Origin: a virus
Strand: one strand, 5' to 3'
Length of the DNA: 64,000 nucleotides
Virus record (IMG/VR): IMGVR_UViG_3300030202_003733
Coordinates: 47,201 to 111,200 of that record
The position numbers and the translations under genes are program-made. This document shows, in pieces, positions 4,401-63,900 of the stretch (the first letter of the stretch is position 1; each line of letters begins with the position of its first letter). The notes below the pieces were generated by a model. It had not been told where the DNA came from and ran no database searches. It worked only from the letters and a program-made list of their open reading frames with translations.

Positions 4401-4423
4401 AAAACTACCCCCTCTTCGTTCTA

Positions 4424-4618: not shown

Positions 4619-4619
4619 T

Positions 4620-6305: not shown

Positions 6306-6749
6306 TTAAAGAATAAAAATCACTGTGGCTAGCGTGTTGTTTCCAATGTGTGCCAAGGTTGGAAGATATATACTTTTACTATTTAATCTAAGCCAACCAA
6401 AGTATATAGATAATGGTAGAATAGAGACAATATGCAAAAGTTCAATATGTGCCAAACAAAATAAAATAGTCGTAAGTAAATAGGCTAGTTTTTTGTTAAA
6501 CACCCCTTCAATAAATTCCCAGAACAAACCTCTAAATATATATTCCTCAGTTATGGGCGCAAACAGGCATAAATAAACTATTAAAGAATAGTGTATCACA
6601 TTATATTCTTCCATTCCCAGCAATGATCCAAGCGCACTCGCAGTCTCGGGCTTATACAATGGAAACATGTTGATCAGAAAATTAAATATAAATGTGCCCA
6701 TTAGGCCAACAGCGCATCCGCCAGCTATGGCTATCGCTTGGTTTTTCAT
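6306..6749 (-). CDS. CPBP-family intramembrane metalloprotease, 147 aa
   Basis: Integral membrane protein with the three motifs of CPBP (Abi/CAAX-protease-like) enzymes, numbered from the ATG at 6749. EEYIFR at 68-73 is motif 1 (the EExxxR glutamates), FCLAH at 97-101 is motif 2, and HIGNN at 134-138 is motif 3. These residues bind the catalytic metal and activate water within the membrane. Four or five hydrophobic segments surround them. At 147 aa it is a minimal version of the family. An ATG seven codons earlier exists, but the run of G residues five bases before the ATG at 6749 marks the likelier start. The substrate is unknown. In bacteria, relatives process peptides and take part in bacteriocin immunity. 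Confidence 0.85.
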   Translation of the reverse strand: MKNQAIAIAGGCAVGLMGTFIFNFLINMFPLYKPETASALGSLLGMEEYNVIHYSLIVYLCLFAPITEEYIFRGLFWEFIEGVFNKKLAYLLTTILFCLAHIELLHIVSILPLSIYFGWLRLNSKSIYLPTLAHIGNNTLATVIFIL

Positions 6750-6791
6750 AACTACCCCCCCTGAATACATAAGTAAGTAGTTATGAAATCC

Positions 6792-7055
6792 CTATTTCAA
6801 CAATGCCATTATATGGTTTCTCTCCACGAGGTTAAAAACATTGCCTTCAATTTTAATTTCTCTAATAATGTGTGAAGGCACGACTACAACATCACCATAT
6901 TTATATTCCTGCTCTGGATCCTTGATCACGCTAGCTGCTTTATACTCATCCTCGGCGGGCTTAAAGCTCTCGGGCAGCAAAACTAATTCATCTTTTTTTT
7001 CATTTTGAAATGGTAATTCGATGTGAATCCATTTTGATTTCGGCTCTATCTCCAT
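6792..7055 (-). CDS. Hypothetical protein, 87 aa
   Basis: Not recognised. The product is a small, probably beta-rich soluble protein with a valine-rich segment (GDVVVVPSHIIREIKI) in its C-terminal half, which could be a small SH3- or OB-like fold. An ATG four codons earlier is possible, but the GGAG of GGAGTTTAAAATG then has the right spacing for the ATG at 7055, one base after the upstream stop. It lies between the zinc-ribbon-like gene and the CPBP protease in the same operon. Confidence 0.6.
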   Translation of the reverse strand: MEIEPKSKWIHIELPFQNEKKDELVLLPESFKPAEDEYKAASVIKDPEQEYKYGDVVVVPSHIIREIKIEGNVFNLVERNHIMALLK

Positions 7056-7056
7056 T

Positions 7057-7278
7057 TTAAACTCCATTTGTGTACTTGTTTAAAAGATTCTCATTGAGAA
7101 AAAATTCCTCCTGTGTGAAAAAAGCTGTTGCCAATTCCCCACATTTTTTACATCTAAAGCGAACAGCAACATGTTTTAGGGTAGATTCAACATGTGTAGT
7201 GGGTAGGTAATAATGTTCCCCACCCACGGCGCACGGGCGATGTTGCTCATACTTTGGCAACAGGTAATTAAATTTCAC
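7057..7278 (-). CDS. Small zinc-ribbon-like protein, 73 aa
   Basis: A 73-residue protein with one clear CxxC knuckle (RCKKCGELA at about residues 42-50) and an earlier single Cys in RPCAVGGEHYYLP, followed by histidines. A half or atypical zinc ribbon is plausible, as in many small phage regulators, but the second Cys pair is missing. The start is a GTG preceded by GAGGTG. A good sigma70-like promoter lies 21-49 bases upstream (7299-7327), so this gene probably heads its own operon running to dUTPase. Confidence 0.6.
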   Translation of the reverse strand: MKFNYLLPKYEQHRPCAVGGEHYYLPTTHVESTLKHVAVRFRCKKCGELATAFFTQEEFFLNENLLNKYTNGV

Positions 7279-7298
7279 GACACACCTCGCTACATGAT

Positions 7299-7327
7299 AT
7301 ATTAATTGGTTTAACTTATTAAGTCAA
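7299..7327 (-). promoter_or_regulatory. Sigma70-like promoter upstream of the zinc-ribbon gene
   Basis: On the minus strand TTGACT (7327-7322) and TAATAT (7304-7299) are separated by exactly 17 bases, a near-consensus sigma70 promoter placed just before the gene starting at 7278. It lies in the short gap after the ribonucleotide reductase gene. Read by host RNA polymerase, it would drive the operon that includes the CPBP protease, DnaE and dUTPase. Seen by eye, not scored. Confidence 0.7.
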
Positions 7328-7333
7328 ATAATT

Positions 7334-9190: not shown

Positions 9191-10539
9191 GTTTTTCTAC
9201 TCTCCTTAAATTTTTTCCATTTTTCTTTTAGTAGCTCAGATTGATTTTTTGTATCCGTCGTCACTTCTGCATTCGTATTTAACGGCAGCACATTAATGCT
9301 CACTCTACTGGTGTCCATAAATATTGGGAAAATCAAACCGTCCGGGCCATTTCGGTTTTTAGCAACATAAATTCTTCCAGAGTTTGCAGCTTTGTCCTCT
9401 ACTGTTCTCGAAACAGAAAATATAAAGTCAGAAACAAAGCATTTAGAAAATGCCTCAGAGATCGACTCCATGGTGATGACTTCTGCGTTAAGTCCAGATC
9501 TATTCGTCTGTGATGCGGTCCACACCGGACAATTAAAATCCTGTGCTATCGCTCGCATCTCTTCGTAAATAGACTCCAACTCATTTCTTTTCTCTCTTTG
9601 ATTGTTTATTGGGCGTAAAAGATCACCGTAATCCACTATGACCATGTCGGGTTCAATATCCTTTACTCGCAACTTCTCAAGATGGTTTCTAATCGTATTT
9701 GTGGTAGCTGACTTAGTTGAATATTCTTTCACGATTAAAGACCCATCGAGGTCCTTGACTGACTCATAAATCATGTCTTTAAAGGAGACAAGACTGTCCA
9801 AGGGAACCTTGGTTAAACAACTATCGTACCTGTTGGCTATAATCGTATCACCCAATTCTAAAGTATAGTGGACAACAGTTTTGCCGTGCTTTAGGGCACT
9901 CGCGCCCAAGTGAACCAATACCATAGACTTACCAGCGCCAGTTGGGGCGATAACAACACCCAATTCGCCCTTGCCAAGACCACCTCTACAGATAGTATTG
10001 ATCTCGCTCCAGCCAGTAGTCACAGGGTCTCTGTGTTTAAATTCAAACCTGCGCTCAAAATCCTTTAGATAATCATAGCCGTGGTCCGGGCTCAAGCCCA
10101 AGGTGAGTGCATTGTTAATAATCTTAGAAATCTCGTCAAAAGAAGACGCTTGTAATAAGTCAACAGACTTAAGCATGGCTTCTTTCAACTTTTGTTTTTT
10201 GCAAAACTCCAGAGAGGTTTCCTTAATGAACTCTGGGCCTTCGACCTCTGTAGACTGAACTCTAGCGAAGTAGTCCTTTAGCTGAGTCAGCAGAGCCTCA
10301 TTTTCGTGCTCCATTGATCTAATGATCGTGTTCATTGTTTTGTGTGTTGGGTGGACCTTATATTTGGTTTTATAAGTTTCTATTTCCTCAACAAACAAAC
10401 GCAAATAATTATACTCTAGAAAACTTAAATCCAAGACCTCAAACATCTGGTCTGAAAAAGGCCTATCCTGCAATAGTAGCTGGCATAGGCCTTCTTGGAA
10501 GCTCCTCCCGAACTTGCCAAAATTGTCTCTGTTCTTCAT
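9187..10539 (-). CDS. Replicative DnaB-like DNA helicase
   Basis: Hexameric RecA-fold helicase that unwinds DNA at the phage fork, equivalent to T4 gp41. Of 450 residues, the N-terminal 150 form a helical domain. The ATPase core has Walker A APTGAGKS at 198-205, Walker B MVIVDYGDLL and later conserved elements (TASQTNRSG; FIFSVSR). It overlaps nrdJ by four bases and is preceded by TTGACA and a weak -10 box in the gap after the exonuclease gene. No helicase loader is recognisable nearby. Confidence 0.92.
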   Translation of the reverse strand: MKNRDNFGKFGRSFQEGLCQLLLQDRPFSDQMFEVLDLSFLEYNYLRLFVEEIETYKTKYKVHPTHKTMNTIIRSMEHENEALLTQLKDYFARVQSTEVEGPEFIKETSLEFCKKQKLKEAMLKSVDLLQASSFDEISKIINNALTLGLSPDHGYDYLKDFERRFEFKHRDPVTTGWSEINTICRGGLGKGELGVVIAPTGAGKSMVLVHLGASALKHGKTVVHYTLELGDTIIANRYDSCLTKVPLDSLVSFKDMIYESVKDLDGSLIVKEYSTKSATTNTIRNHLEKLRVKDIEPDMVIVDYGDLLRPINNQREKRNELESIYEEMRAIAQDFNCPVWTASQTNRSGLNAEVITMESISEAFSKCFVSDFIFSVSRTVEDKAANSGRIYVAKNRNGPDGLIFPIFMDTSRVSINVLPLNTNAEVTTDTKNQSELLKEKWKKFKESRKT

Positions 10540-11546: not shown

Positions 11547-12671
11547 TTATTCGTCTTCAGCGCCCTGGTTAACATCATAGAATGCCGTGGCATCGCCCTC
11601 ACGAGATGAAAACTTTTGTATGACCTCTTCATCCATAATTTCTAGGATGCGGGATCGAAATTTATCCTCTGCTAATAGCTCAAGCCACTTAGACGATTGG
11701 AATTTCTGCTCGCTTCCATCCTTATGTGTGAGAATGTACCACGCACCCTTTTGGTCAATGTGCTCAGAACTTTTGACAGCATCTAGCCAACTTTGTTCAT
11801 CTTGAATAACCGCGTCCTCTGTGCCCCATAGAATTTTAAAAGCACACTCTCTGCCCTCGGTTCCGAAACGCGACTTTTTAATCCTTGCCTTTACCTCGGA
11901 CCCAATTCTATAACCCTTATCGTCCATAATATAAGACTTTTTAGCTCTTCTTGGGTACAGCCAGATACGTAAAGAGTACGCATATGGTAATGCCTTGCCA
12001 CCAGGTGTCACATGTGGGTTAAGAAGTATATCGGCAGTGTTATTTGAAATATTTGTTTTAAGTTGGTTCAATGCCAAAATTGTACTTTCTGCGTTAGCTA
12101 GTGGTATAACAAGCTTCTTCATACCCTTAGACAAAATTCTTGCTTTTACAGCCATGGAGGACTGTGGGTTGAAATCGCCATCCGTATCAGACTTGCAGGG
12201 GGTGTTTGCAACACTATCCCAGATAAAGAAATATTTATCGTCATGGCTGATAAGCTTTTCCACGGATTCTAGGACAAACTCAACCGTTTCCGCTTGGACA
12301 TAAATCAGGTCATCCAAACATACCCCCGTTTTTTGTAGAAACTCTGAGTCGATCGCGCTTTCAGAATCAAAATAGACCACTTTTAGGCCTTCCTTTTGTG
12401 CATTCGCTGCAACCTGGGCAGCCATGTAGCTCTTCCCGGTTGATTCGAGGCCCGCTATCTCAACAATCTTGCCAAGTGGGATACCAGCCAATTTGCCCTT
12501 ACAAATTATCCCATCCAGCCATCTAGAGCCGGTTGAGACCCACTCTTTTACATCTGATGGGTTCTCATCTTTCAAAGAGTAGGCTACCTTAGAACCAGAC
12601 CCTTTGTTTAACATCTTTCTAATATCGTCGGGCGACAGGCCCCCGACTCTCACTTTTTGTTGTCTAGCCAA
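11547..12671 (-). CDS. RecA/UvsX-like recombinase, TTG start
   Basis: Strand-exchange ATPase for recombination and recombination-dependent replication. Walker A is GLESTGKS at residues 74-81, very like RecA's GPESSGKT. Other recognisable elements are VVYFDSESAID, FFIWDSVANTP (Walker B), ALNQLKTNIS and TPGGKALPYAYSLR. The first ATG (12713) has GGGAGG only one base away, too close to work. A TTG at 12671 has GGAGG four bases upstream and gives a 374-residue protein beginning MARQQKV, so I chose it. The C-terminus is acidic (GAEDE), as in RecA. Neighbours are the exonuclease and a pair of membrane proteins. Confidence 0.93.
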   Translation of the reverse strand: MARQQKVRVGGLSPDDIRKMLNKGSGSKVAYSLKDENPSDVKEWVSTGSRWLDGIICKGKLAGIPLGKIVEIAGLESTGKSYMAAQVAANAQKEGLKVVYFDSESAIDSEFLQKTGVCLDDLIYVQAETVEFVLESVEKLISHDDKYFFIWDSVANTPCKSDTDGDFNPQSSMAVKARILSKGMKKLVIPLANAESTILALNQLKTNISNNTADILLNPHVTPGGKALPYAYSLRIWLYPRRAKKSYIMDDKGYRIGSEVKARIKKSRFGTEGRECAFKILWGTEDAVIQDEQSWLDAVKSSEHIDQKGAWYILTHKDGSEQKFQSSKWLELLAEDKFRSRILEIMDEEVIQKFSSREGDATAFYDVNQGAEDE

Positions 12672-15853: not shown

Positions 15854-17031
15854 GTTTTATTCTCCATACTACCGAAGTTACTACCAATGGACACATTAGT
15901 CAAAAATTCTGTGTCATTAAACATAGAGAACTCTTGTTTTAAGGCCGCCAACAAGCCCATCTCCTCTTTCGCCATATCCACAACCACCGAATCATGAATC
16001 GTAAACGCGATGTGTGATTTTTTATCCTTTAAAAGCTTATATAGTTTTACCATTTGCCTCAAGACAATATCAGCGGCGGTGCTTTGTATGAGATATGATG
16101 TGGCGTGAAACTTATCAGACTCTATCTCTCTACCAAAAGGATTCACAACCTGTGTGCCGGTCCAATATTGGTCCAATATTCTTCCCCTGCTGTATACCGC
16201 TTCCGACAACGAATCTTTTGAGTCAATGTTATACAACCAAGCAAATATTCTCCTCTTGGCCTCCTCTCTACTCAATGAAGAGCCATAAACATTTTTAACA
16301 TTCCATTTGTGAATATCTTGGTCGGGTTGTGCCTTCCCAGACAAATACAGCAAGACCCGCAACTCGAAGGCATTATAATCAAGCTCTACAAAATAATCGT
16401 TGTTTGGTTTTATATATTTTCGCAAGCTCTTGTGCATATTAAGTATTGGGAACGTGTCTGGGTTGGTAGCTAGACGCCCAGTTTTTGTGCCAAATATATT
16501 GTAGTCGCAGTAAACTCGGCCACCGCTCACTCTCTTTAGAAAATTTTTAGTTTTTAAATCATAGCTATTTCTTCTAAGAGTCATCATATCTACATTTAGT
16601 TTCTGGTATTTAATCTCTTTCGTAATTAAATCTAAGTCGTGCAGAAAATCATAGTTATGAGGCCTTTCGCACTCTTCAAACACTCTTTTTGTAATTTCAT
16701 TTTTTATATCGTAGAAGTCTAGCAAGAATCTTTCGGGGACCAAATCATAAAAGCAATTAGCGTTTAAATCAACTTTAGATAGAATGAACGACTTTAGAAA
16801 AGCCTTAAGCCTGCTAGTCGCTAGACCCCAGTCCTTCTTTAAATCTTCAGGGCATACCTGATCGATTCGCTTGCCGCAATATAGATCAGCACACTCGATT
16901 TTATGACCATCTACCGATAAGGGGTGAGACCATGTCCGTGTGAGCCCCTGTGGAAGCGGGCCATAAATAATTGACTTGTCGTAATAATAGCCTCGACATT
17001 CTTTCTTATCGTCAAATGCTTGGAAATACAA
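15850..17031 (-). CDS. Family A DNA polymerase, polymerase domain only, 393 aa
   Basis: Contains the palm and fingers of a PolA-type polymerase. Motif A DYNAFELR at 218-225 has the catalytic D218. REEAKRR at 255-261 corresponds to the fingers region. GRLATNPDTFPILNMH near 185-200 is the conserved primer-template grip, and IHDSVVVD at 345-352 is motif C, with the usual Glu of HDE replaced by Ser. Only about 170 poorly conserved residues precede it, so neither 3'-5' nor 5'-3' exonuclease domain is present. With DnaE also encoded, this enzyme may serve repair or gap filling. The start is a TTG; the GGGGGC before it is close. The deviations from consensus leave activity to be tested. Confidence 0.85.
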   Translation of the reverse strand: MYFQAFDDKKECRGYYYDKSIIYGPLPQGLTRTWSHPLSVDGHKIECADLYCGKRIDQVCPEDLKKDWGLATSRLKAFLKSFILSKVDLNANCFYDLVPERFLLDFYDIKNEITKRVFEECERPHNYDFLHDLDLITKEIKYQKLNVDMMTLRRNSYDLKTKNFLKRVSGGRVYCDYNIFGTKTGRLATNPDTFPILNMHKSLRKYIKPNNDYFVELDYNAFELRVLLYLSGKAQPDQDIHKWNVKNVYGSSLSREEAKRRIFAWLYNIDSKDSLSEAVYSRGRILDQYWTGTQVVNPFGREIESDKFHATSYLIQSTAADIVLRQMVKLYKLLKDKKSHIAFTIHDSVVVDMAKEEMGLLAALKQEFSMFNDTEFLTNVSIGSNFGSMENKT

Positions 17032-45944: not shown

Positions 45945-48900
45945 TTAAAAATTAACAAAAGCATAGTCACCTTTTTGCTCTATGCTTATTTGTGCATCCA
46001 CACAATCCTTAAGTGCTTCAAGGTGTGATATCAACAACACAGTTTTAAAGTGTGATTTGATCATATTCAACATTCTAGTGAAACCCTCCATGTTCTCTTC
46101 GTCTAGGGCTGTGCCCGGTTCGTCCAAAATAAAGACGTCACCTTTGGGAAGGTTCGACACGGAGAGCATGGCCAAGCGAATAGCCATCGCAGCAATTGTT
46201 TTTTCTGCACCTGAGCCCATCTCAAGCGGTCGCGGGTCTTGGTGGAAATGTTGGATATGTATATTTAGTCTTTTGCCGTCATCTTCAAAGAATACACCAA
46301 AATCTACAATGTTAACAAGGAATTTAGCTATCTCCTCATTAATGATTGGTAGTTTTTTCTTAATAATATCGTAGGCAATCCCATTGCTATGCATACACTT
46401 GAGGTACAAATCATAGGCGGAATATTCTCTCCTTAGGTCCTCAAGTTCCTCTTGTTGTTCCTTGAGGTTTTCAATTCTTTGTTCTAGTGAACCAATTTTC
46501 TTGATACTCATTCTTAATTTATTATCTAAGTCATTATCCAGTCGCTTAGCTTCTTGAAGACTCGAACTCTGCAACGTGGACTTTTCAGTTAATAGTCTTT
46601 CTAGATTTTCAATCGCATCTTTGTTTTGTTCATATTCTCTTCTTTGTGCCTCTAGCCGGACTTTGTCGGCTTTGGCCGAGGCTATGGAATTTTTAGCCCG
46701 CTCCATAGAAAGCTCAACCCTGTTCTTTTCAATAATCGAAGTGTCCCTCTTTCTGCTAAGTGTCTCGTGTTTCTCAATGTTGCCCACTGTAACCTCGGGG
46801 TCCAAGGCTAGGCGCTGTTCCCTTAACCTTCGAACAGAGTCTTCAACGCCCGGCTTCTTTGTCAGCGACTGTTCAGCTTCACGTAAGCATTTACATCCCC
46901 TAAGAAATTCAGGGTCTTGTAATGAAGATATTTTTTTCTCAATCTGAGCTAATTCTCTGTCGTAGTTCTCGATCTTCGTTTGTAAGCCATCCATTTCTCG
47001 TTTTCTGTCTTTGAGTAATGGCATATCTAGTAAAACCAAAAATTGATTTATGTTTTCCACTAACTCTTCTAGCCCGATCAGTTCGCTAGCCCCTTTTGAC
47101 AGGAGTGCTTCATGTTCGGTTATTGACCGCTCAGCCGACTGTATATTACTAATGACTGAGTTGATATCAATGGGCTCAGCGGGAACATTATCAATTTTTT
47201 GTTGTAGGTCTGATATCTGGCTGGTGACATCTAGGACAGACTGCTTTGATTTCTTTTTATCTTCGACTAGTTCCTCGTGTTCAATCGAAGCATCAGACAA
47301 GTCAGACACCACATCGTCGATCTCAGATGAAAAATCCTTACCCTCTAATCTTTTTAAAGCTCCTTTAAGATCGGAGGCATCTTGTTTCGCATATTTAAAT
47401 TTTTTATCAAAAAGTTCAAGATCAAGAAATTTAGCAAAAATCTCTTTTCTTTTTGTTGAACCCTCGCGAATAAAAGACAAAGAGTCCAATTGAGATGACA
47501 TCGATGTTAAAAGAAAGTCGTCTACTGTTCCAAACTTACTTCTGATTATTTTGTCCGTCTCGGCTCTAGTCATCCCGTTATGGTTTTCGACAACGTTACC
47601 ATAATGTGAATTAAATTCAACACTTGTCTTGGCCTCTATTATTTCCTCGCCTTTTGACTTTTTGGTATATTTTTCTAATGATCTGTCAATTGTCCATTGG
47701 GTGCCATCCGCCGTTTGCAAAACCGCCTTTCCAAACGCGGTGTCTTTGTCGTAATTAATTACATTGACACTTTTTCTTTCGTTTTTAGAGGTAGTGTTGA
47801 ACATCGTGTACAACAAGCCATCAATTATGCTAGACTTGCCCGAAAAGTTTTTACCAAAAATACCAACAATGCCATTTGTATTTTCAAAATTAATTACATT
47901 GTCTTCGCCATAGTTGAATAGGTTATTGAAAGTTAGCTTTTGTAGCTTCCAATTAACATTTCTTTGTACCTCTTCGTTCTCCTCTGCCATACGATTGTAT
48001 TTATCGTTAAGGTCTAAAATCTTTTTTAGAATCTCTTCCTCTAGTTCGTACCCCTCAAGGAAGTCTTTTATAAGCTTTCTTTGAACCACAATGTTACGCA
48101 GGTCATCGTGTCGTATACTATCAACAACTTCCTCTATATCTCCACGAGAGTGTATATTTCTATTTAGAAAAGTTAAGCTCTCTGGGGAAAACTTGTGCTT
48201 GGCTATGTCGACAGCCCTTTTCATACTCTCTAGAGTAATGCTCTCTGTAGAGGCCAACCTCAGCCTAGAGCCCTCTGGGACATCCACCTCAGGCAGCTTT
48301 CCGTTCTTCAGTTCTATGGTTACGAAGGGCTTTGGATTGGAAAAAACTATCTGTTTAACTGTAAAGTTATCCCTATCTTGAATGTCCCAAATTAAAATAC
48401 CTTTATCAACCTCTTCCCCAAAATTTTGTTGTATTGTCGAGCCTGCGTATCGGACACGACCCGCCTTGTCCAATTTTTGTGCTTTGTGTATGTCACCCAA
48501 AAAAGCGTAATCAAACTCTTCAAATATTTCTACTTCATTTTCTCCACTATCCATCACCCAACCACTGTCCGTCTGACAGTTGGATATTGAGCCGTGATAA
48601 AGAGCTATGTTGACGTTGTTATAATCTGTTGGATCCTGCCAGTTGTCCTCATCAAACACAGAGAGAACGTTTAAAGCAAACCTATCACGCAAATAAACCT
48701 CGCAAGAGTTTTTCAACAAGTGCAAGTTGGGATGCTCAAGGGCCTCCACAATGGGCGAAATCGCATCGAGTCGCCCCGAGTTTTTGAGGTTCCCATCATG
48801 GTTGCCTAGAATGATATATGTTGGGGCTATATCTGCTAAACTCGACAGGAAGTCAGAACACATGTTTACAAACTCAGGGGATATCTGAGTCTTGGTATGG

Positions 48901-49037
48901 GCGATATCCCCACAGTGAATTATATAATCAACGTTCTCGTTCTTAATTGAATCATACAATTGTTTAAAAACAGATTTATATTCTGCATGGTATCGCAGGT
49001 TTCTAATGTGTGTATCAGCTATGTGAGCAAACTTCAT
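45945..49037 (-). CDS. Single-chain Mre11-Rad50 (SbcD-SbcC) fusion nuclease/ATPase, 1030 aa
   Basis: The N-terminal about 340 residues form an Mre11/SbcD phosphoesterase: IADTH (D8, H10), HCGDIAH (41-47), LGNHDG (N79, H80) and LYHGS, GDIHKAQ further on. From residue about 362 a Rad50/SbcC ATPase begins: WKLQKLTFNNLFNYGEDNVI and Walker A GKNFSGKS (395-402), a long coiled coil (about 550-900) and the C-terminal lobe with MGSGAEKTIAA and Walker B VFILDEPGTALDEEN. T4 makes these as two proteins, gp47 and gp46. The coiled-coil apex has GCKC at 714-717, a CxC in place of the CxxC zinc hook. There is no stop or frameshift at the junction. Confidence 0.94.
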   Translation of the reverse strand: MKFAHIADTHIRNLRYHAEYKSVFKQLYDSIKNENVDYIIHCGDIAHTKTQISPEFVNMCSDFLSSLADIAPTYIILGNHDGNLKNSGRLDAISPIVEALEHPNLHLLKNSCEVYLRDRFALNVLSVFDEDNWQDPTDYNNVNIALYHGSISNCQTDSGWVMDSGENEVEIFEEFDYAFLGDIHKAQKLDKAGRVRYAGSTIQQNFGEEVDKGILIWDIQDRDNFTVKQIVFSNPKPFVTIELKNGKLPEVDVPEGSRLRLASTESITLESMKRAVDIAKHKFSPESLTFLNRNIHSRGDIEEVVDSIRHDDLRNIVVQRKLIKDFLEGYELEEEILKKILDLNDKYNRMAEENEEVQRNVNWKLQKLTFNNLFNYGEDNVINFENTNGIVGIFGKNFSGKSSIIDGLLYTMFNTTSKNERKSVNVINYDKDTAFGKAVLQTADGTQWTIDRSLEKYTKKSKGEEIIEAKTSVEFNSHYGNVVENHNGMTRAETDKIIRSKFGTVDDFLLTSMSSQLDSLSFIREGSTKRKEIFAKFLDLELFDKKFKYAKQDASDLKGALKRLEGKDFSSEIDDVVSDLSDASIEHEELVEDKKKSKQSVLDVTSQISDLQQKIDNVPAEPIDINSVISNIQSAERSITEHEALLSKGASELIGLEELVENINQFLVLLDMPLLKDRKREMDGLQTKIENYDRELAQIEKKISSLQDPEFLRGCKCLREAEQSLTKKPGVEDSVRRLREQRLALDPEVTVGNIEKHETLSRKRDTSIIEKNRVELSMERAKNSIASAKADKVRLEAQRREYEQNKDAIENLERLLTEKSTLQSSSLQEAKRLDNDLDNKLRMSIKKIGSLEQRIENLKEQQEELEDLRREYSAYDLYLKCMHSNGIAYDIIKKKLPIINEEIAKFLVNIVDFGVFFEDDGKRLNIHIQHFHQDPRPLEMGSGAEKTIAAMAIRLAMLSVSNLPKGDVFILDEPGTALDEENMEGFTRMLNMIKSHFKTVLLISHLEALKDCVDAQISIEQKGDYAFVNF

Positions 49038-49066: not shown

Positions 49067-51022
49067 TTAGAGTGTGTCAAGAGAAAGTTCAAGCTCTTCT
49101 TCGACCATAGTTAATAACTCTTTTAGGGCTAACGGATTAGCAAACGGTCTATGCTCACCACTTACATCTGCCCCGGTGACAGGGCCTATCAACCCTAGCC
49201 TGGCCCGGTAATTACTAACTGTTTTGCCTGGGTACAACTTCCTGAAAGATAGATTTGGCACAACGTGCAACTCAGGCTCGCCACCTTTTTTTGTGGGTCT
49301 TCTTAGGAGTTCTGCCGCATAATAATCTCCGGGATTATTAATTTGAAATGCCACTATTTTAGTCCAAAAATCCCAAAGCTTTTGTGAGTCGTAACCTATG
49401 TCTGCCAATTCATTTAAAACGTTAATGTATTCCTGTGCAAACGCTCTTAGGTTCTTAGGTTTAGACTTAGACAAAACCTTAGGTATGTCGTCTCCGTAGA
49501 ACATTCTAGAGTTTATTGAATCGACACAGCCTAATTTACCGGTCACCATTTGTGTTGCAAATCCTGCTTTCGCCAGCCCTAAACCCTTGATTGTTAGAAA
49601 TACCGTCATGACATCCAGTGGGTTAGTATCAGCAGATTTAAGTAAGCCTATCATATTATTATATACTTCTTGTCTATTTCCCCATAGTTCAAAGTATGTC
49701 TTCGTTGCGGGCACAGCCGAAACCTTGCTCACACCGTTTGATATTACAATCAATTCTTCCGGCGGGAGCTTCCTGTACTGCTCGTGTTTTAATAAGTCTA
49801 AAGATATTAAATATGCCTTAGGGCTACCAAAACCCATTCCCGAACCGACCAGGTCAGGATTTTTATTCATCGGATAATTTTCTCTCATCTTCCGATTACG
49901 GGGCGATGACCAACCCGATGGATTGGCTGCATTTGGGTCGGCGTCCTTCGTGGTTATCCACTCCATTAAGTGTGGGAAGTATGGCATGACTGTGGGCCAG
50001 TCAGTTCTTTGTGTTGCATACACAAACAAAATTGTCTCTGCTAGGTTCTCTGGGCTTTCCTTGACCCATTCATTAATCTGTGGGTTGTATTTACAAAAGC
50101 CGCTCTTCCCTAAGGCGTCCGGCGTTAAGCTTACCAGTGGCACCTCTCTGCCAACATCTTGAACTTTTGCTGGTACCTTCTCTGGTCCACCTTCTTCTGG
50201 TTCTGGAACTTTATAAGTTCTAAGTGACGGCAAAGGCAAAGTCTCTTCGGGGTCCTCGTCCTCATCTGGGTCCGACAGCGGGAGATTCATTTGAGTAGCC
50301 TCAGATAGGCCAGTAACATCCTCCGGCGGGACGGGCTCAAACCCCAAGTCTAGAAGCGTTTGCTGCCAGAGTGATTTAATATCCTCACCTTGTTCCTCAT
50401 CCATAACCTCACTGACCATTGACATTAGATCGTCTTTTGACAATTCTTGGCTTGGCTCTTCTTCCGGCATGACATCTGACGCGAGCACAGGGGCCCTTAC
50501 CATAAGTTTCCAATCCCCAGCCTCCGAAGCGTGGAAGTATATCTCCTCCCCAGATAAAATTTCTTTTTGTTCTGGATCCGTAACACTGAAGAAATGGCCA
50601 ACTGCTGGGTGAAAGCTAGCTTCTTCGAATTCGGACAAAACAGCGGGGTCCACCTCATTTGTTTTTGTCACCACTCCAGAGACACCAGCAACTAAAGTTC
50701 TCTTACCTGTTTTTACAATTTGCTTAGCTCCCGACTCGGATGTTTGGAATCTAATCGGGGGCTCAAGTCTAATTGCGTTTGTATAAGCTATAGGCGACCC
50801 TGTTCTAGTGCCACGGGGGCTTGAATTATATATGCCCACCATACCATTGCGACCCTCGTTACGGTTGGTTCTATTGGTGTGCAGCCACACTCGTTGTCCA
50901 ATAAGATCATCGCCCTCCACATATGCAGCCTCGGGGGCTGTGGGGACAATTCGAGGAGGCTTAAGAGACTCGTAATATGCCTCCCTTATCATTTGTAGAA
51001 GGTCGCTCTTGTTGATTTTCAT
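49067..51022 (-). CDS. Putative capsid-targeted protein with HhH glycosylase-like region, 651 aa
   Basis: Starts with the leader shared by other suspected head proteins (KINKSDLLQMIREAYYESL); IRE-A at residues 12-15 fits a prohead-protease site. The first half is disordered and acidic in part (DPDEDEDPEETLPLP near 251-265). Residues about 470-505 (FLTIKGLGLAKAGFATQMVT, GKLGCVDSINSR) look like a helix-hairpin-helix followed by the Asp-containing strand of HhH-GPD DNA glycosylases (L/G-x-VDTHV in that family). The domain call is tentative. It may bind or cut DNA on entry into the host. It precedes the Mre11-Rad50 gene and follows primase. Confidence 0.55.
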   Translation of the reverse strand: MKINKSDLLQMIREAYYESLKPPRIVPTAPEAAYVEGDDLIGQRVWLHTNRTNRNEGRNGMVGIYNSSPRGTRTGSPIAYTNAIRLEPPIRFQTSESGAKQIVKTGKRTLVAGVSGVVTKTNEVDPAVLSEFEEASFHPAVGHFFSVTDPEQKEILSGEEIYFHASEAGDWKLMVRAPVLASDVMPEEEPSQELSKDDLMSMVSEVMDEEQGEDIKSLWQQTLLDLGFEPVPPEDVTGLSEATQMNLPLSDPDEDEDPEETLPLPSLRTYKVPEPEEGGPEKVPAKVQDVGREVPLVSLTPDALGKSGFCKYNPQINEWVKESPENLAETILFVYATQRTDWPTVMPYFPHLMEWITTKDADPNAANPSGWSSPRNRKMRENYPMNKNPDLVGSGMGFGSPKAYLISLDLLKHEQYRKLPPEELIVISNGVSKVSAVPATKTYFELWGNRQEVYNNMIGLLKSADTNPLDVMTVFLTIKGLGLAKAGFATQMVTGKLGCVDSINSRMFYGDDIPKVLSKSKPKNLRAFAQEYINVLNELADIGYDSQKLWDFWTKIVAFQINNPGDYYAAELLRRPTKKGGEPELHVVPNLSFRKLYPGKTVSNYRARLGLIGPVTGADVSGEHRPFANPLALKELLTMVEEELELSLDTL

Positions 51023-51031
51023 AAAAATACC

Positions 51032-51958
51032 TCATGCTTCGATGATTTTCTTTAGTAAGTAGTTGTCAGAATTCATAATTTCTGAACTGTTTTTCTTATC
51101 ATTGAAAATGTCTCTTGGCATAACAGCGACATCTTCATAACCATGCGTGTTAACTTTGTGTACCTCAACACCGTAACCGTTAAGTTTATCAACAATTCTC
51201 ATAGCCTTTTTATCAGCGTCGGAATCTAGTGCAACATATACGGCAGGACTCTCTAAAATTATTTTTTGAAACAAGCGCGACTCCTCTCGCAAAGTAGAAC
51301 CTAGCAGAGGTATTGCATTACCTGCTCGTATAGCATCAAACACACCCTCTACAAGAACAATGTCCGAATCCCAATCAACATATAGGTCATTAAAAATTAT
51401 GTTTCTGCTGACCTTGGGGTTTGTATATTTTTTCCAATCATTCGAGTACGACCTGGCTACGAAATAATTCACTTCCCCCGTATAATCAAACGATGGAATT
51501 ATAATCCTACCAGCATATTCTCCACGAACACAATGACCTATCTTCCACTTAAGGATGTCTCTTTTGGTTATGCCACGGCTAGTGAGATAAAATATTGCCT
51601 TCTGTGCCGTGAGTGATGCAGGGTTACCCGTAAGTGTAACAAATTCTTTTGGCAAAGAAACACTCTGTCTCTCCTCAGGCTTACCATCAAAGAATAGATC
51701 AAACTTGGTCAGATCAACCTGGCCTGTGAGATTCTTCCATTCTCTAACCTGGTCGTATGTGCCGGACTTTCGCACAAGGCGAAGTATGTTCCTGCCGCTA
51801 GTATCGCATACCCAGCATTTGTACGCGTTTTTCTCAATGTTGACAGATAACTTTCTCTTGTGGTGATCACAAAAAGGACAATAAAATAGAAGTTCGTTAC
51901 CCGAGTGGTAGCATGAGCCAAGAGCGTCTTTTAGGATTTTTAATTTTTTATTACCCAA
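51032..51958 (-). CDS. DNA primase, DnaG/T4 gp61-like
   Basis: Makes RNA primers at the fork. The zinc-binding head has C27, C30 (CPFCDHH) and C48, C51 (CWVC), and the TOPRIM core has LVEGVFDAI (E204) and ALDSDAD (D245, D247). 308 aa is smaller than bacterial DnaG, as for gp61. The start is a TTG; the site before it is weak (GAGAGTGAATAAAA). It is separated from helicase and SSB by 35 kb, unlike in T4, and sits between two putative virion proteins. Confidence 0.93.
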   Translation of the reverse strand: MGNKKLKILKDALGSCYHSGNELLFYCPFCDHHKRKLSVNIEKNAYKCWVCDTSGRNILRLVRKSGTYDQVREWKNLTGQVDLTKFDLFFDGKPEERQSVSLPKEFVTLTGNPASLTAQKAIFYLTSRGITKRDILKWKIGHCVRGEYAGRIIIPSFDYTGEVNYFVARSYSNDWKKYTNPKVSRNIIFNDLYVDWDSDIVLVEGVFDAIRAGNAIPLLGSTLREESRLFQKIILESPAVYVALDSDADKKAMRIVDKLNGYGVEVHKVNTHGYEDVAVMPRDIFNDKKNSSEIMNSDNYLLKKIIEA

Positions 51959-54598: not shown

Positions 54599-56818
54599 TT
54601 ATGCTACGCCAGTGTCGCCACGGCCAGCGCGGCCAGCCCTCTTTGCAAGTCTGCCTGCGGCTTTCTCGCGACCTGCGCCAGAAGCAAGCTGTGACAATTT
54701 ATCTGCCCTAGCGGCTCTAACTTGTTTTGCAATATTTTTAAGCTGCGGGTCTCCGACGCCATACTTGTCTTCTGCATTGGCAAGAATCCTATCTGCTGCC
54801 CTTCTTACTTCGCCAGGTGTATTAGCTTTAGCAATCATACCACGCCAACCTCTTGCCTGTGGGGCCGGGGTCTTAGCTTTTGGCATCGGCACATCTGAGG
54901 TCATGGCGACCTGACGTGGCGGAGTTGTCATTTTTACAACGTCATCGCGGTCAAGCTTGACACCTTTGCCTGCTCTTTGTGCAATAGATGCAGGTGGTTT
55001 GGGTGAGGGTCTATCCGCGACCGTCTCAATATCACCGTAGGTCTTCACTGGAAGGGTAAGCTTTTGGCCAACACGAATCAAGTCAGGATTTTTCTCCAGT
55101 TCTGGATTTGCCATGATCATATCCCGGACAGTTATGCCGAGTCTTTGTGCGATCTTGGAAACAGAGTCACCCGACTTAACAGTGTATTCCTCATTAAGGT
55201 TGATCTTTCTTCTGTGAGTTTTCATCACATCCACGGTCTCTTCTTTAACCATTGACTCTATAAGTTGTTTGGTGATTTTCATTGTTTTAGTTCCTTCTTG
55301 TATACCTTTGTCATCTGCATAAGCTTGTGCAACCCTACCCCTTGCAGGGGTGCCTGGTGCTGGTGCTTTTTTAAATCTTTGTTTACGAGCCCTATCAGCG
55401 CGTTTACCAGCTTTTCGGTCAGCCGATGGTCTAGTTTCTTGTCTCGTGAGCCTAGCCTTTTTTGTTTTGAATTCTTCAATCTTCTTGTCTGCTATCCTAA
55501 CAATATCTGCTGGCAAGTAATCGGTTTTGAGGCTAACATACCTTTTCATAATAGCTGGTAGATTGCGAGGCTTCTCCGGTATTGCTCTTCTGTCCGGGTC
55601 CCTTCCTTTTTGAGCATACTCTGTTCTTATCCTCTGTAGGTCCGCAATTGCGCGATCATACTCTTGCATAGCTTTAGAGCCCGTGAACGTAGGGACCGGA
55701 ACGTTTTCTTTTTTCTCTTTCTCTACTTTAGCCTGTTTTGGCTCAACTTTTGTTTCAGGTGTTTTTGGATCGGCTTTACGCTTAGGAGTAGGGCCGCCTT
55801 TGAGAGACGCCTTGTATTCCTCCCCATACTGTGCCCATGCTTTTCTTATATATGAATTATTGTATGGTCCGCTTGGGTCAAGATCAATTTGTCTAGCGTA
55901 GTCCGAGTGGGTCTTATTTACCCATGCTCTGAATTTATCACCAGTGGTTCGGTCTACAATAACACCGCCAGTAAGAACTGCCATAGCGACTCTGCCGCCG
56001 CCGCCCTTCTTGTCATCTTTCTCTTCTTTTTCCTCTTCGGGCTCTTCCTCTTCACCACCAAGTATTTTATTTTCATCTAACGCTCCGGTCTTAGGATCCC
56101 ACTGATCTATCTTATGACCATCGAGCAGGGCCAGCGCGATTGTTTGAAGGTTTTTACCAAAAGCCTTAACTAAACCACCCGCAGCGAGGCCAGCGCCGGC
56201 TGCACCGGCTGCTCCTCCCGCAGCAACACCGGCAGGTATTGATAGACCACCAGTAAACCCAGCACCAGCGAGGCCAGCAACCCCTCCGGCAGCAGCACCT
56301 CCAATACCGCCAGCAACAGCAGCAGCGCTGCCGGCAGCAGCGGCTTGGATCGCCGCGTTGGTCAGTTCACCCTTTATGTGTCTCCTCAGGGGCGCACCAG
56401 CATATTCTTTGTATGCGGCCTCAATTAATTTGTTAGTGCCTTCATCATTAGCCAAGTTACCAATAAGTTTTGATTCATTCGTGCCAATACCCGTGCCGCC
56501 TTTCATAGATTGGTAAAGTGCTCGCACTCTAGCATTTATTAGAGCTGTCCCGGATTTACCAGCGTGCTCGTTATAATAGTCCATGGAGGACTTGCCTCCA
56601 GCAATACCTCTTGACGTCATTTTCCAAGCAGCCAGCAGATGTTTCCATTTGATTTTACCCTCTCCGGGGACGAGCCAGTACTCCTCACGCGCTTCCTGTG
56701 GGTCCTCTGCGGCGGGCGCGGCCTCTTCCTCTTGTTCAGATATTTCGTTTAAGTATCTTTTATACTCTTCTTTAACAATCTTGTTGAGGTCTTGAGGGTT
56801 CATTTTTACTTTGCTCAT
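54599..56818 (-). CDS. Putative ejected membrane-active protein with glycine-zipper and LysM domain, 739 aa
   Basis: Leader VKMNPQDLNKIVKEEYKRYL (LNE-I, ISE-Q sites near 22-29). Residues 152-218 are extremely Gly/Ala-rich (for example GGIGGAAAGGVAGLAGAG), a glycine-zipper pattern that could insert in membranes. A long charged region follows, then at M513 a second leader KITKQLIESMVKEE, and a LysM domain at about 543-591 (EEYTVKSGDSVSKIAQRLGI; NPDLIRVGQKLTLPV). AAGGA precedes the internal ATG (55282), so an independent 227-aa LysM product may also be made. The role as ejected pore or wall-binding protein is inferred. Confidence 0.65.
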   Translation of the reverse strand: MSKVKMNPQDLNKIVKEEYKRYLNEISEQEEEAAPAAEDPQEAREEYWLVPGEGKIKWKHLLAAWKMTSRGIAGGKSSMDYYNEHAGKSGTALINARVRALYQSMKGGTGIGTNESKLIGNLANDEGTNKLIEAAYKEYAGAPLRRHIKGELTNAAIQAAAAGSAAAVAGGIGGAAAGGVAGLAGAGFTGGLSIPAGVAAGGAAGAAGAGLAAGGLVKAFGKNLQTIALALLDGHKIDQWDPKTGALDENKILGGEEEEPEEEKEEKDDKKGGGGRVAMAVLTGGVIVDRTTGDKFRAWVNKTHSDYARQIDLDPSGPYNNSYIRKAWAQYGEEYKASLKGGPTPKRKADPKTPETKVEPKQAKVEKEKKENVPVPTFTGSKAMQEYDRAIADLQRIRTEYAQKGRDPDRRAIPEKPRNLPAIMKRYVSLKTDYLPADIVRIADKKIEEFKTKKARLTRQETRPSADRKAGKRADRARKQRFKKAPAPGTPARGRVAQAYADDKGIQEGTKTMKITKQLIESMVKEETVDVMKTHRRKINLNEEYTVKSGDSVSKIAQRLGITVRDMIMANPELEKNPDLIRVGQKLTLPVKTYGDIETVADRPSPKPPASIAQRAGKGVKLDRDDVVKMTTPPRQVAMTSDVPMPKAKTPAPQARGWRGMIAKANTPGEVRRAADRILANAEDKYGVGDPQLKNIAKQVRAARADKLSQLASGAGREKAAGRLAKRAGRAGRGDTGVA
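55276..55299 (-). promoter_or_regulatory. Possible internal translation start within the 739-aa gene
   Basis: AAGGAACTAAAACA precedes the in-frame ATG at 55282, a ribosome-binding-like AAGGA at nine bases. The peptide that starts here (KITKQLIESM) repeats the capsid-targeting-like leader. It may start a separate LysM protein. The longer frame has no stop, so both forms are possible. Confidence 0.45.
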
Positions 56819-57345
56819 TAGCTGTTGTTCCTTATCTCTTGTAAGCCTGCTCTGGCTATTACCAAACTATCTGCTCTGTCGTAATATTCAGGCTTTGGGT
56901 TTCCAAATTTAGTATATTCGATTGCAAAGTTAGGTTCATTCTCAATTAAATAGTTCATTACAAACTGTTTTGCCTTAATTCCCCTGGGAACTTTTATACC
57001 ACACAACTTTCTCGCACTAGTCGCTGCAATGTACTGTGGCTCAATATCAAATTCTTTAAAGACCATCCATGAAACAACACCGTTAAATCTTGATAAAGTG
57101 GATAAAGTTTTAGCAGACGAGAAGCCACTTCTAAAAGACTGTAGCGACTGTTCTATAAAAACACTCGCTATATCAAAGCGGCTATCTTTCGCTAGTTTTA
57201 TTATCTGCTCGTTGACAAAATTAGCCTTATCGAAAAAATTCTTGTATTTTCTAAGATCCCAAGCTTCATTCAACAATATGTCATCATCGTCCGAAACGAT
57301 AGTGACGCCAGTTATGCTTGTAGAAATATCTAACCCTAAAATCAT
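56818..57345 (-). CDS. RuvC-like Holliday junction resolvase, 175 aa
   Basis: RNase H-fold endonuclease. The catalytic acidic residues are D6 in LGLDISTSITGV, E65 in VFIEQSLQS, and D156/D159 in YYDRADSLVIARAG. T4 uses endonuclease VII (gp49) for this job; here a RuvC-type enzyme would clear branched DNA ahead of packaging. Its stop overlaps the 739-aa gene start and its start overlaps the 492-aa stop by one base, placing a DNA enzyme in a virion operon. Confidence 0.88.
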   Translation of the reverse strand: MILGLDISTSITGVTIVSDDDDILLNEAWDLRKYKNFFDKANFVNEQIIKLAKDSRFDIASVFIEQSLQSFRSGFSSAKTLSTLSRFNGVVSWMVFKEFDIEPQYIAATSARKLCGIKVPRGIKAKQFVMNYLIENEPNFAIEYTKFGNPKPEYYDRADSLVIARAGLQEIRNNS

Positions 57346-58856: not shown

Positions 58857-59969
58857 TTAATAGTCTAATCTGACTCTAAATGTTAACTCATTGGATGGAG
58901 TCTTTTTCAGCGGCTCGGACAACTTAGCAACCGCAAGCAATTCGTTGTCTGGTGAATAAAGTCCAATAGTAGTAACATATGAGGCAGGCAGCGCTCTGGG
59001 ATCTCCGTTCTTCACAACGATTTCACTAGCGCCGTTAGTGCCAGAAAGGTAAGTTGGGTTTGAACTGTAATTAAACTCATTGTGGTTACCTCTACAGAAA
59101 TAAACTGTAGAATTTAACTCTGTGGTATTGTTAAACTCTATGTTAAAAAGTCTATTCCGGAACGCATCACAAGAAGAGGAGATATTCGACCCAGTAAACA
59201 TTATATTAATAGAGCCTGTGTCGAAGTGGTTGGCCACTAAGTTCGGCCCAAATGGTGTGACAGCGGGGCCATGCGCTGTAAACAAAGAAGCCGTTAACAC
59301 AGCAACTCCCGCTTGATAGAACACCAGTCCAACCGGCTGATGGCCTGCTGGGGCTGCTGCCGAGGAAGTATAAAGCAGACCATACTCACCAGCAGGTGAA
59401 TTTGTTTTATAAGTTGTAGAAGCACTAAAATCTGAACAGGTTATCATAGTGTCTACAGTGAACTCTGGGATTGTGCCCAGGGCTCCATCAACAGACCCTG
59501 TGTCAACCACCAATTGGAAGCTTTCTTTTTTAATCTCATCTTTTACAAGAAGTCTTGAGAATGTGATAAAAATGGCTTCATTGATTTTGGTGCCGCCAGC
59601 AATAATATTACCATCCTGATCAAAATTTCTTATAGAGCCAGTCTCATCATAGCCAACTAAAAGCTGTGCCATTTGGTTGTAAATATTAATCTTTTTGCTC
59701 TGCTGGTTGGGCGCACCCGCACCAGACAGCGCTGAGTCGCTGGAAAAGCCGACTGTCAAATCATATATGTGATTTGCAGAAGAACTTAAAAAGGGGTAAT
59801 CAAACACACTTTGAAATATACCATGAGAGTAGTTCTTAATATTCGTTTCTGTCGTCCCCTGCACGTAGGTGCCCGAGGAAATAGTTCCTGTGAGGGGTAT
59901 AGCCTCGTGTAACAACGTTTTGGTTGTTGTTACATCGGTCGCCCCCATTTCTTTAAAAGTAGATGCCAT
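58857..59969 (-). CDS. Virion structural protein B, 370 aa (paralogue of the 492-aa protein)
   Basis: Shares with the 57345 protein a C-terminal module (IGLYSPDNELLAVAKLSEPL) and the preceding FNYSSNPTYLSGTNG element. Its N-terminal half differs (VTTTKTLLHEAIPLTGTISS). It is beta-rich with few charged residues. Likely a fibre or baseplate component; T4 equivalents are not recognisable. It follows the 299-aa gene by 26 bases. Confidence 0.7.
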   Translation of the reverse strand: MASTFKEMGATDVTTTKTLLHEAIPLTGTISSGTYVQGTTETNIKNYSHGIFQSVFDYPFLSSSANHIYDLTVGFSSDSALSGAGAPNQQSKKINIYNQMAQLLVGYDETGSIRNFDQDGNIIAGGTKINEAIFITFSRLLVKDEIKKESFQLVVDTGSVDGALGTIPEFTVDTMITCSDFSASTTYKTNSPAGEYGLLYTSSAAAPAGHQPVGLVFYQAGVAVLTASLFTAHGPAVTPFGPNLVANHFDTGSINIMFTGSNISSSCDAFRNRLFNIEFNNTTELNSTVYFCRGNHNEFNYSSNPTYLSGTNGASEIVVKNGDPRALPASYVTTIGLYSPDNELLAVAKLSEPLKKTPSNELTFRVRLDY

Positions 59970-60949: not shown

Positions 60950-63900
60950 TTATTCGTATTCTGTTTTCGTCTTAAAGTTGACATTTAAATCTATTTTCTT
61001 TCCAGTCTCAGTTGATCTAATCCTGAATTTAAACTTTTTGCCCCACAATGTATTTTCGTCGTAAAGACCGCCGCCTAATTTTGCAGTGTTTAAAGTGTCA
61101 GGCGTGTTTGTCGTGCCATCTAAAGCTTCGCCCCATTCGTTTTTAATTCCGCTGTCCTCAGTAGTTAACATACTCTGCTGCATGTTCGGTCTTATTAATA
61201 GTAATTTTTTAAAGCTCTTTGTTCCATCTACCGTTGCAGTGCTCTCAGGGCGGAAGGAGTTAATCAATGGATAAACACTACCACCGTCGTCGACCATTTC
61301 TACTTCATAAATAGATGTCGGATTCGAGAAAGTCCCATGAAAATCGACACATCTAAATGTGTAATAGTATTTAGTGTTTGGTATTAAATTATCCTCCAGT
61401 GAAGGAGACAAATTGCGTATAACGTTTGGCTTTTCAGAGAAAAAGGTACTCAATTTTTTACGAAGTTTCCCGGCAAAGTCTTGATATGATGTAGGTTTTG
61501 TAGTTGTCCGGTAGATTTCTATGTATGAAGGATAATCATCATACCCAGTTGTATGCCCATCCTCTATCCTTTGACCAGTAGCGTAAATGACCTGTGACTC
61601 GTCTGCCGGGTTCCTGGGTAGAGAATTGATAATGTTCTGATCCCCAGGTTCAATAGCTATAGGGACTTCTGTGCTTATACCAAAGGCGCATGTAAAGTTT
61701 AAAAGTATTTTATCGCTGACCGATCTGTAAGATACAATATTTACATCCGGTTTCCTGGGTGGTTTATCTGACACCTTGGATATTGCGCTGCCATAGGGCG
61801 CAAGCACAATACTAGACTTTGGACGTATTTCCAAGTCAACTGTTGCGTTATAACTTAATACTTCACCTGCGCCTTCTACTATCTCTTCTTCAGAATATTC
61901 CGCATTCATGTCGAAAGGAATTACAGACTCGGGCACAAATACTGTCGAAGAGTTTGTCCAAGAACCATTCTCCTCTGTAAAAAGGTCAGGAAACCTATTA
62001 AGATACTCTCGAAATTCTGCTCTAACTTCAGCTATGCTAGTGTAAGTTTTGTCGGGGTCTAAGACAGGTTCATTGCTATCGTCTAAAGCAAGATTGTGTG
62101 TTTGGAGCCACCTGATGGGTATCCGATATCTATAAATGTTTATAACCCCGCCATATGTATCGCCAGCCCCCACAGTTGGGTTAATCTCCAGATCTTTAGA
62201 ATCTCCGATATTTGGGTAATCTAAAATTTCCAGATCGTCAAGAACAGTTAGGTATGCTATATTTGGCGGGGCTGCAAATGCGTTATCCGGCAGATCTCCG
62301 ATCAGTACATCATAAAGAGAAACGAAGCTAAACCCCGACTCAAACAAAACCGGTCCCGGCCTTGGTTGAACAACGCGCTCGACGCACAGATCTCCTGCGC
62401 CTGCACAGGACCACGTATTGAAAGGTGCGATTATTCCGCCTTCGTTGTCTCCCAAATTCATCATCCTTGGAAAATAACTCCCCCAACTAGAATCCTCATC
62501 AGCGTTATATATATATGCACGTTCAGGCAACCCAATCTCATCTGTGTGTTTCCACCTGTTGAAACCACCAACACGCTCAGTAGAACCTTGATCCCACATA
62601 AATGGGTCTCTAGAATTTGGGGATGGGCTATCTTCATCGATGCCATCTAATGGCGAAGCAAATGTGAATTCTACATGAGTTATGACTGGTGCGGCGTCTC
62701 TATTTGTCGCCACAGACTCAACAGAAAATTGGTACTCCTGTCCTAACACATATTTTGCTTCATGCACTTCATAGTAATATTGTTTTCCAAACTTAACCTG
62801 CGTATCAACATATGAGATATTATTATCAGGTACATCAAACAAAGAGTTGGCGATATATATTTGCTGTATCATTTCGCCATTTTCATCATTATCTTTTTTA
62901 GTAATTCTGTAGCCTAATGTCTCAGTGTAAGCTAATTCGCCTTGCTGAAAGAGGGCGCTAAAGCCTCTAGCTTTTCCTTCCTCTATAAAATATATATCAT
63001 CTATAAAGTTATTATAGTTACCTTCGCGGAGATATCCTCCATCTAATTGGTTTTGTATGTACAACTCTTCGTCTTCGGGACAAACGGAGTAAAAGTTTTG
63101 TAAGGGGATCCCAGTAGCAGTAGGCTTATATATATGATATCCTTGTGTATCTTCGGAGGAGAAAAAATTTGGAACAGTAGCTCCTGACTCTGGATCGCTA
63201 TATAATTCCGGATCTTCCGCCCATAAAATAGAGTTTCTGTGACCAAAAGATATAGTTTCATTGCTGGCATCTGAGGCCCTGTAGACCTCAAATAATTCAT
63301 TGAAAGAAGTATAGTGAGCCTCAGGCGAAGAAAGATTATACAGCACTGGCCGGGTTGAGGCTTCGGATAAGACCCATGAAGAGAAAGCAAAAGTTAGATG
63401 CCTGGAGGCGAGAGACGCGGCATAGCTGCTACCGGCTGCAACCGTACCGTCCTCTCCTGCGTAGTCTTCGGGAAAATCTCGGTTGAAAGATACCCCACCA
63501 TAGAATGGGTGACGCCAAGAGTTCTGTGGGACCATCTCAAAATTATATGCCCACGAATCTTTATATGCTTTATTATCAAATACAAGTTTCTCATTTTTTT
63601 TATTAATTTTATTGATCTTATCTACAGATATATCCTCAAAAGAGTTGGCAAAATCATTGTAATATGTTTTTAACGTAACATCCAGGTCCGCACTGTCTTC
63701 CGGCAAATATTCTAAACCTTTAGAATCCACAAGATCAAAGAGGGTTGTGTGTTCAAATAAATCCGGGTAATCAACACGATCATCTATAATCGGCTTATCC
63801 GCATTTGTTACATAATATAAATAATTGAAATAAGCATTTGGCAATGACCGCTCATTTACGCTTAGACCTAAAGAGAAATCTTCATATTCTTCTTGGAAAT

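Follow-up and report, generated by a model that had tools for sequence, protein, structure and literature searches.

The IMG/VR virus record IMGVR_UViG_3300030202_003733 (183,023 bases) contains, within the window analysed here (64,000 nucleotides, positions 47,201 to 111,200 of the record), a gene for a 1030-residue protein in which an Mre11/SbcD-like nuclease and a Rad50/SbcC-like ATPase form one chain. The phage is aquatic, and this fused protein is very probably its own Mre11-Rad50 (SbcD-SbcC) complex in single-chain form, with a likely role in recombination-dependent replication. Its open reading frame (ORF) is located on the minus strand, which an earlier description of the locus (the original prediction) had not stated, and extends from an ATG at 49037 over 1030 uninterrupted codons to a single terminal stop ending at 45945; the plus strand of the interval 45945-49037 contains many stops. 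The chain starts with the nuclease (residues 1 to about 297), followed by a helix-loop-helix (HLH), a linker of about eight residues and a complete Rad50/SbcC ATPase (residues 362-1030; Table 1). Pfam detects Metallophos at residues 1-185 (E 6e-13) and AAA_23 at residues 367-615 (E 4e-10), PHROGs detects SbcD-like and SbcC-like proteins at residues 1-362 and 292-1024, respectively, and the whole record contains no Metallophos or AAA_23 match other than these two. The ORF check, Pfam and PHROGs agree with the original prediction of one uninterrupted Mre11-Rad50 frame of 1030 residues, and D8, H10, H80, Walker A (GKNFSGKS, residues 395-402), Walker B (D972/E973), C715 and C717 are found where it had placed them or where the motifs predict them.

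Table 1. Domains and motifs of the fused protein, and replication genes in the same window (window coordinates).
Feature	Position	Strand	Basis or remark
Mre11/SbcD-like phosphoesterase (nuclease) domain, residues 1-225	48363..49037	-	Pfam Metallophos, PHROGs SbcD; conserved D8/H10/D44/N79-H80/H148/D182/H184
D182 in GDIH (P. furiosus His206 position)	48492..48494	-	Asp in place of the His typical of separate-gene Mre11/SbcD
Mre11 capping domain, residues 226-312	48102..48362	-	Position, predicted secondary structure, structural match of model residues 1-297
Helix-loop-helix (helices 316-330 and 334-353), candidate Rad50-binding domain	47979..48101	-	AlphaFold2 secondary structure; putative role
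Junction linker, residues 354-361	47955..47978	-	Gap separating the last HLH helix (to 353) from the first ATPase strand (from 362)
Rad50 ATPase N-lobe, residues 362-545, with Walker A (395-402) and Q516	47403..47954	-	AAA_23, motif columns
Coiled-coil arm 1, residues 546-706	46920..47402	-	Long model helices; 170 residues from 545 to apex Cys
Apex CKC (C715-K716-C717), altered zinc hook	46887..46895	-	CXC in 5 of 141 distinct relatives
Coiled-coil arm 2, residues 718-870	46428..46886	-	Long model helices
Rad50 ATPase C-lobe, residues 871-1030: signature MGSGAEK, Walker B FILDEP, D-loop, H1005	45948..46427	-	Motif columns, structural match
DNA primase, conserved upstream neighbour of the fusion	51032..51958	-	PHROGs DNA primase, E 4e-37
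RecA-family recombinase (matched stretch)	11820..12611	-	PF00154, E 2e-39; record 59020-59811
DNA polymerase A (matched stretches)	15922..16548	-	PF00476, E 9.5e-12 and 5.8e-10; record 63122-63748
DnaB-type replicative helicase (matched stretch)	9331..10023	-	PF03796, E 3.5e-20; record 56531-57223

The fusion is genuine and conserved and not an assembly artefact, since the 80 best relatives are all single ORFs and scans anchored on either half contain no split form. With the full protein as query, the survey of relatives proposed in the original prediction shows one ORF of 1030-1059 codons across the whole match in every one of the 80 top-ranking IMG/VR relatives (49-85% identity; 315 confirmed in total). 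Because such a ranking favours fusions, scans were also run with each half alone. The Mre11 half retrieved 73 uninterrupted ORFs and seven cut by a contig end, the Rad50 C-lobe 55 and 25, respectively, and split ORFs are absent from the best 80 of both scans; each scan kept the best 80 of its confirmed list (315, 586, 597 and 330 entries for the four scans), and rare split forms may occur further down. Four of the Mre11-anchored ORFs (L217, L218, L252 and L269; 1053-1067 codons) and two of the Rad50-anchored ORFs (L314 and L316) lack one exact motif string and were scored as uninterrupted by their length. The fused protein of Microcystis phage Mel-JY01, used as a further query, identified 80 additional loci that constitute a sister, Mel-like subclade and share no identical protein with the first 80 relatives; 78 of them are fully contiguous, and in the other two the ORF stops two codons short of the end of the tblastn match. 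The fused ORF is the sole AAA_23 match in all 13 larger IMG/VR contigs behind these loci, and likewise in Mel-JY01. The Metallophos match stands alone in 11 of these 13 contigs, while the other two carry a second, small phosphoesterase.

A lost stop codon or a frameshift that joins two adjacent genes during sequencing or assembly, the artefact scenario raised in the original prediction, does occur elsewhere. The ORF at 2908-5937 of locus L084 from Listeria phage LMTA-57 (1009 codons), annotated as a 1009-residue 'recombination exonuclease', is probably a false fusion: phage A511 has two genes, LMTA-57 differs from it by a single deleted A in an A-run that lies 8 bases ahead of the nuclease gene's stop codon, and among the 60 of 62 megablast matches listed, the other annotated Listeria entries mostly show two coding sequences. 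This look-alike belongs to a different, separate-gene lineage. For the ORF described here, the probability of such an event is practically negligible, given that all 80 relatives, the most distant at about 49% identity, and the 80 loci of the sister subclade are contiguous and that the linker length is constant.

The junction between the two halves is short and uniform. An AlphaFold2 model based on 46 sequences (mean predicted local distance difference test score, 78; predicted template modelling score (pTM), 0.45) shows the HLH at residues 316-353 and the first ATPase strand at residue 362, leaving about eight residues for the linker. The stretch of residues 337-369 is 33 residues long in 141 of 141 distinct near relatives, and the junction stretch comprises 32 residues in 79 of the 80 Mel-like proteins. 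The continuity of the linker, which the original prediction had singled out for checking, is supported by this constant length. Mean identity to the fused protein amounts to 71% for residues 356-364, 47.5% for residues 226-355, 28% for the coiled coil and 70% for the nuclease. Among the fused protein and the relatives L002 and L003, non-synonymous divergence (dN) of HLH plus linker is 0.028-0.065, with synonymous sites saturated in most segments. For the T. maritima complex, Yoshida et al. (2011; PMC3175470) estimated that the Mre11 C-terminus and the Rad50 N-terminus lie about 28 Angstrom apart, a gap that corresponds to a linker of 9-12 residues. The length observed here would fit a cis joining of the nuclease to its own ATPase. 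A single ORF could also give rise to two proteins, via cleavage or an internal Rad50 start near residue 350, and the complex would then still consist of separate subunits. An ATG is indeed present at codon 350, directly before the ATPase, but the 20 bases upstream contain no obvious Shine-Dalgarno sequence when inspected by eye, and M350 is not conserved, many aligned relatives having V or I, for instance, at this position; two separate products are therefore highly improbable.

The nuclease half of the model (residues 1-293) matches S. aureus SbcD (7dog) with a Z score of 22.9 and a root-mean-square deviation (rmsd) of 3.3 over 273 aligned residues. The capping domain is covered by the structural match of residues 1-297, and the predicted secondary structure fits both this domain and the HLH. 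The calcineurin-like phosphoesterase motifs D.H, GD, GNH, H and G.xH are present, with one ligand histidine replaced by aspartate (D182). D8, H10, D44, N79, H80, H148, D182 and H184 are unchanged in all 81 proteins of the first-set alignment. Within the Mel-like subclade, every tested residue is invariant (80 of 80) except H10 (74 of 80) and H1005 (76 of 80, the four gaps being contig ends); Gln replaces H10 in six of the 80 Mel-like proteins (L120-L199) and also in L098. In the 141-protein set, in which the added proteins (L204-L361) were chosen by the strings GDIH and LDEP and a length above 1000 residues, conservation of D182, H184 and D972/E973 is partly by construction, and the unconditional counts are those of the 81-protein and Mel-like sets.

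The position of D182 is occupied by Asp in 14 of 14 fused proteins compared and by His in seven of eight separate-gene pairs; the T5-like Vibrio phage PG07, which has separate genes, likewise contains GDLH. Mimivirus R555 shows the same change of His206 to Asp at this catalytic position (PMC3175470), and D182 is therefore a family trait and not a sign of decay in this phage. A structural or DNA-tethering protein with a decayed nuclease, in which D182 stands in for the catalytic His, would be in line with GDxH instead of GHxH in all compared fused members and with the Gln at position 10 in part of the sister subclade. This explanation is nevertheless very unlikely, because the remaining metal ligands are all invariant, the nuclease is among the best-conserved segments (70% mean identity), Asp is itself a metal ligand and the GDLH of PG07 occurs in a separate-gene system.

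One relative carries, and a second appears to carry, additional sequence at the nuclease motifs. The huge-phage copy L085 (LR756508.1, 5944-10169) is broken by about 0.9 kb right after GDIHKRQK. An ORF in this insert (6665-7582) has HNH endonuclease and TnsA-like matches, and the insert is probably a mobile element beside the catalytic motif; a group I intron was considered for this copy and rejected, as no Rfam match and no intron family were found. At the contig start of L097, the residues before CNLNNSNRLDALTP resemble the end of an intein, located exactly at the GNHD/C boundary of the nuclease motif, which looks like an intein in the nuclease active site.

The ATPase half (model residues 363-1030) matches E. 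coli SbcC (7yzo_D) with a Z score of 28.7 and an rmsd of 3.4 over 351 aligned residues. It contains the complete Rad50 motif set, i.e., Walker A, Q-loop, signature, Walker B, D-loop and His switch, split by a coiled coil with short arms of about 160-170 residues each. All 81 proteins share G400, K401 and Q516, and alignments of 48 and 46 rows show no variation at S942, D972, E973 and H1005.

A DNA primase gene is found upstream of the fusion and on the same strand in all 36 near-family loci whose upstream sequence reaches 3.9 kb or more, and in 49 of 53 Mel-like loci. The ORF between primase and fusion in the window (651 residues, 49067-51022, minus strand) has a weak Phage_L5_gp82 match and is present in only two of 80 near-family loci. 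The RecA-family recombinase encoded in the same window is probably the partner of the fused protein in recombination-dependent replication. By analogy to T4 gp46/gp47, the primase adjacency and the presence of RecA, PolA and DnaB suggest that the fused protein is likely to act in end resection and tethering for recombination-dependent phage replication.

The reading as a single-chain complex starts from direct observations, namely the continuous frame, the conserved catalytic residues, both folds, the invariant linker length and the linked replication genes. Two copies of the fusion would pair through their ATPase heads, and probably also through their nuclease domains, forming an ordinary M2R2 head in which a fusion dimer substitutes for the usual heterotetramer. 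ATP binding and hydrolysis would control whether DNA ends or hairpins reach the metallo-nuclease, which would be placed in cis on its own ATPase. The short coiled coils, closed at a two-cysteine apex that may bind zinc, would clamp or tether DNA, and end resection would feed the phage RecA and a replisome of PolA, DnaB and primase, as gp46/gp47 does in T4. The separate-gene Mre11-Rad50 complex already has a 1:1 composition (M2R2). Covalent joining, which according to the original prediction fixes the stoichiometry, therefore guarantees the 1:1 ratio but does not change it. With the whole M2R2 head contained in one short chain, the fusion lends itself to structural and single-molecule studies of Mre11-Rad50, and the question of cis or trans placement (nuclease on its own or on the partner's ATPase) becomes accessible through geometry.

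Several points weigh against this interpretation. D182 replaces a metal-binding His and the chemistry may be changed, and the activity of the fused family members is a prediction from sequence. The HLH is recognised from predicted secondary structure only, and the pTM of the model is too low to place the domains relative to each other. No DNA polymerase B was found alongside the RecA, PolA and DnaB matches, and the replisome is therefore not that of T4. Finally, the fused protein of Rhizobium phage RHph_Y65 is separated from the others in the ATPase tree, at a weakly supported position (56).

The part of the finding that is worth following is the variable apex of the coiled coil. The CXC motif (C715, C717) noted in the original prediction is real and deviates from the canonical CXXC hook; the assignment to Rad50/SbcC holds nonetheless, because the ATPase fold and motifs place this half there. 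Two apex cysteines are retained in 141 of 141 distinct near relatives with a spacing of one, two, six or seven residues: CX6C in 105 (PCGxxxPxCKFIxDA type), CX2C in 16, CX7C in 15 and CX1C in five. The suggestion that the zinc hook is absent or altered is thus correct for altered and not for absent, and a two-cysteine hook of other spacing is possible in the fused protein. The apex is CXXC in 80 of 80 Mel-like proteins and CPxC in seven of seven separate-gene phage proteins examined and in E. coli SbcC, while CXC is the minority state of one small clade. In the alignment, C715 falls in the column of the conserved second cysteine and C717 in that of the Phe following it, so CXC most likely arose when the first hook cysteine was lost and another cysteine was acquired.

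On a tree of 82 of the 83 alignment rows (L086 omitted), calculated without the coiled coil, the hook type changes at least 12 times. CX6C accounts for nine changes forced by strongly supported branches and CXC for one, and L062 (CX6C) is 89-90% identical to L054 and L078 (CXXC). When hook types were shuffled, as few changes were obtained in 209 of 500 shuffles for CXXC, for which this control is weak, and in 44 of 500 for CX6C, for which it is moderate. The little clustering seen makes 'rapid switching' a fair description of a pattern that appears scattered rather than clade-structured. The coiled coil beside the apex gives no clear sign of a recombination block, since its similarity within switched pairs is not clearly lower than within unswitched ones (13 and 15 hand-picked pairs). 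The apex could represent a swappable dimerisation cassette that lets the Rad50 arms of a given phage join only with arms of the same type. This idea draws on phages that are 70-90% identical in the fused protein and differ in hook type (CX2C, CX6C, CX7C, CXC), and it is doubtful; if true, the fused machines of co-infecting relatives would be kept apart. With two constant cysteines and free spacing, the apex offers a natural test of what the Rad50 hook requires, and it challenges the idea of an essential CXXC geometry.

The fusion itself is already known. Yoshida et al. reported proteins that fuse Mre11 and Rad50 from Mimivirus, from a Bacillus phage and from plasmids and cells, concluded that they arose several times, and predicted homologues and their abundance in aquatic phages (PMC3175470). 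The linker, the Asp change and the abundance in aquatic viruses are likewise in that paper, while hook, zinc and cysteine are not mentioned in it. Thus, the contrast to separate T4 and bacterial genes drawn in the original prediction is valid for a conserved fusion, but its novelty is not, as such fusions have been in print since 2011. The published examples (Mimivirus R555, Bacillus phage 0305phi8-36, plasmid and eukaryotic) share the order of nuclease and ATPase in one chain, the retained HLH, the short linker and primases on the same scaffolds; as a sign of kinship with R555 in particular, the shared feature is the His-to-Asp change. What differs here is that whole or long phage genomes carry the fusion, which backs the 2011 prediction for aquatic phages, and that the linker is counted over 141 sequences. 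In the passages considered, PMC7824862 regards SbcC and SbcD as present in nearly all jumbo phages and mentions no fusion, PMC6466248 repeats the R555 proposal and PMC3655615 only cites the 2011 paper. A literature search, with most subscription papers outside it, yielded, among the titles listed, no further one on phage fusions of this kind or on hook spacings.

T4 gp47/gp46 and other phage SbcD/SbcC pairs resemble the fused protein in domain content, short coiled coil and phage replication setting, but are encoded by separate genes, with a CPxC hook in seven of seven and GHxH in six of seven. E. coli SbcD/SbcC shares the fold of both halves and differs in having two overlapping genes, a much longer coiled coil (SbcC, 1048 residues), a CPLC hook and GHIH. 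The Mel-JY01 protein (WWT39521.1), from a phage with a named host, is also fused (30% identical over 100%) and encoded near a primase gene; it differs in its CXXC apex (YDPKCKHC) and is annotated only as 'AAA domain containing protein'. The 'SbcD-like' protein of RHph_Y65 (L118, 4001-6880), again from a phage with a named host, combines both halves and GDIH in one ORF of 959 residues. It is a distant relative with N79 replaced by Gln, a CYAC apex and a Rad50 half outside the near family, and as a query it retrieved one weak locus only. Trees of a small sample (14 fused proteins, seven phage pairs and E. coli) place the 14 fused proteins in one clade in the concatenated alignment (support 100). 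The near family, Mel-JY01, a 735-kb phage and copies derived from metagenome-assembled genomes (MAGs) form one clade for each half (95 for the nuclease, 97 for the ATPase), and RHph_Y65 joins the fused clade in the nuclease tree (99).

The closest isolate terminases are those of Flavobacterium phage immuto (44%, the nearest) and Mel-JY01; no AAA_23 match was found in immuto. A plasmid search matched 15 records, none over 80% of the query, and no plasmid fusion of the near family was found among them. In cellular genome contigs, 13 loci matched; the 10 looked at are mostly short MAG contigs, and these matches look like phage contamination. One cellular match (L102) is located inside a long chromosome that contains masked stretches.

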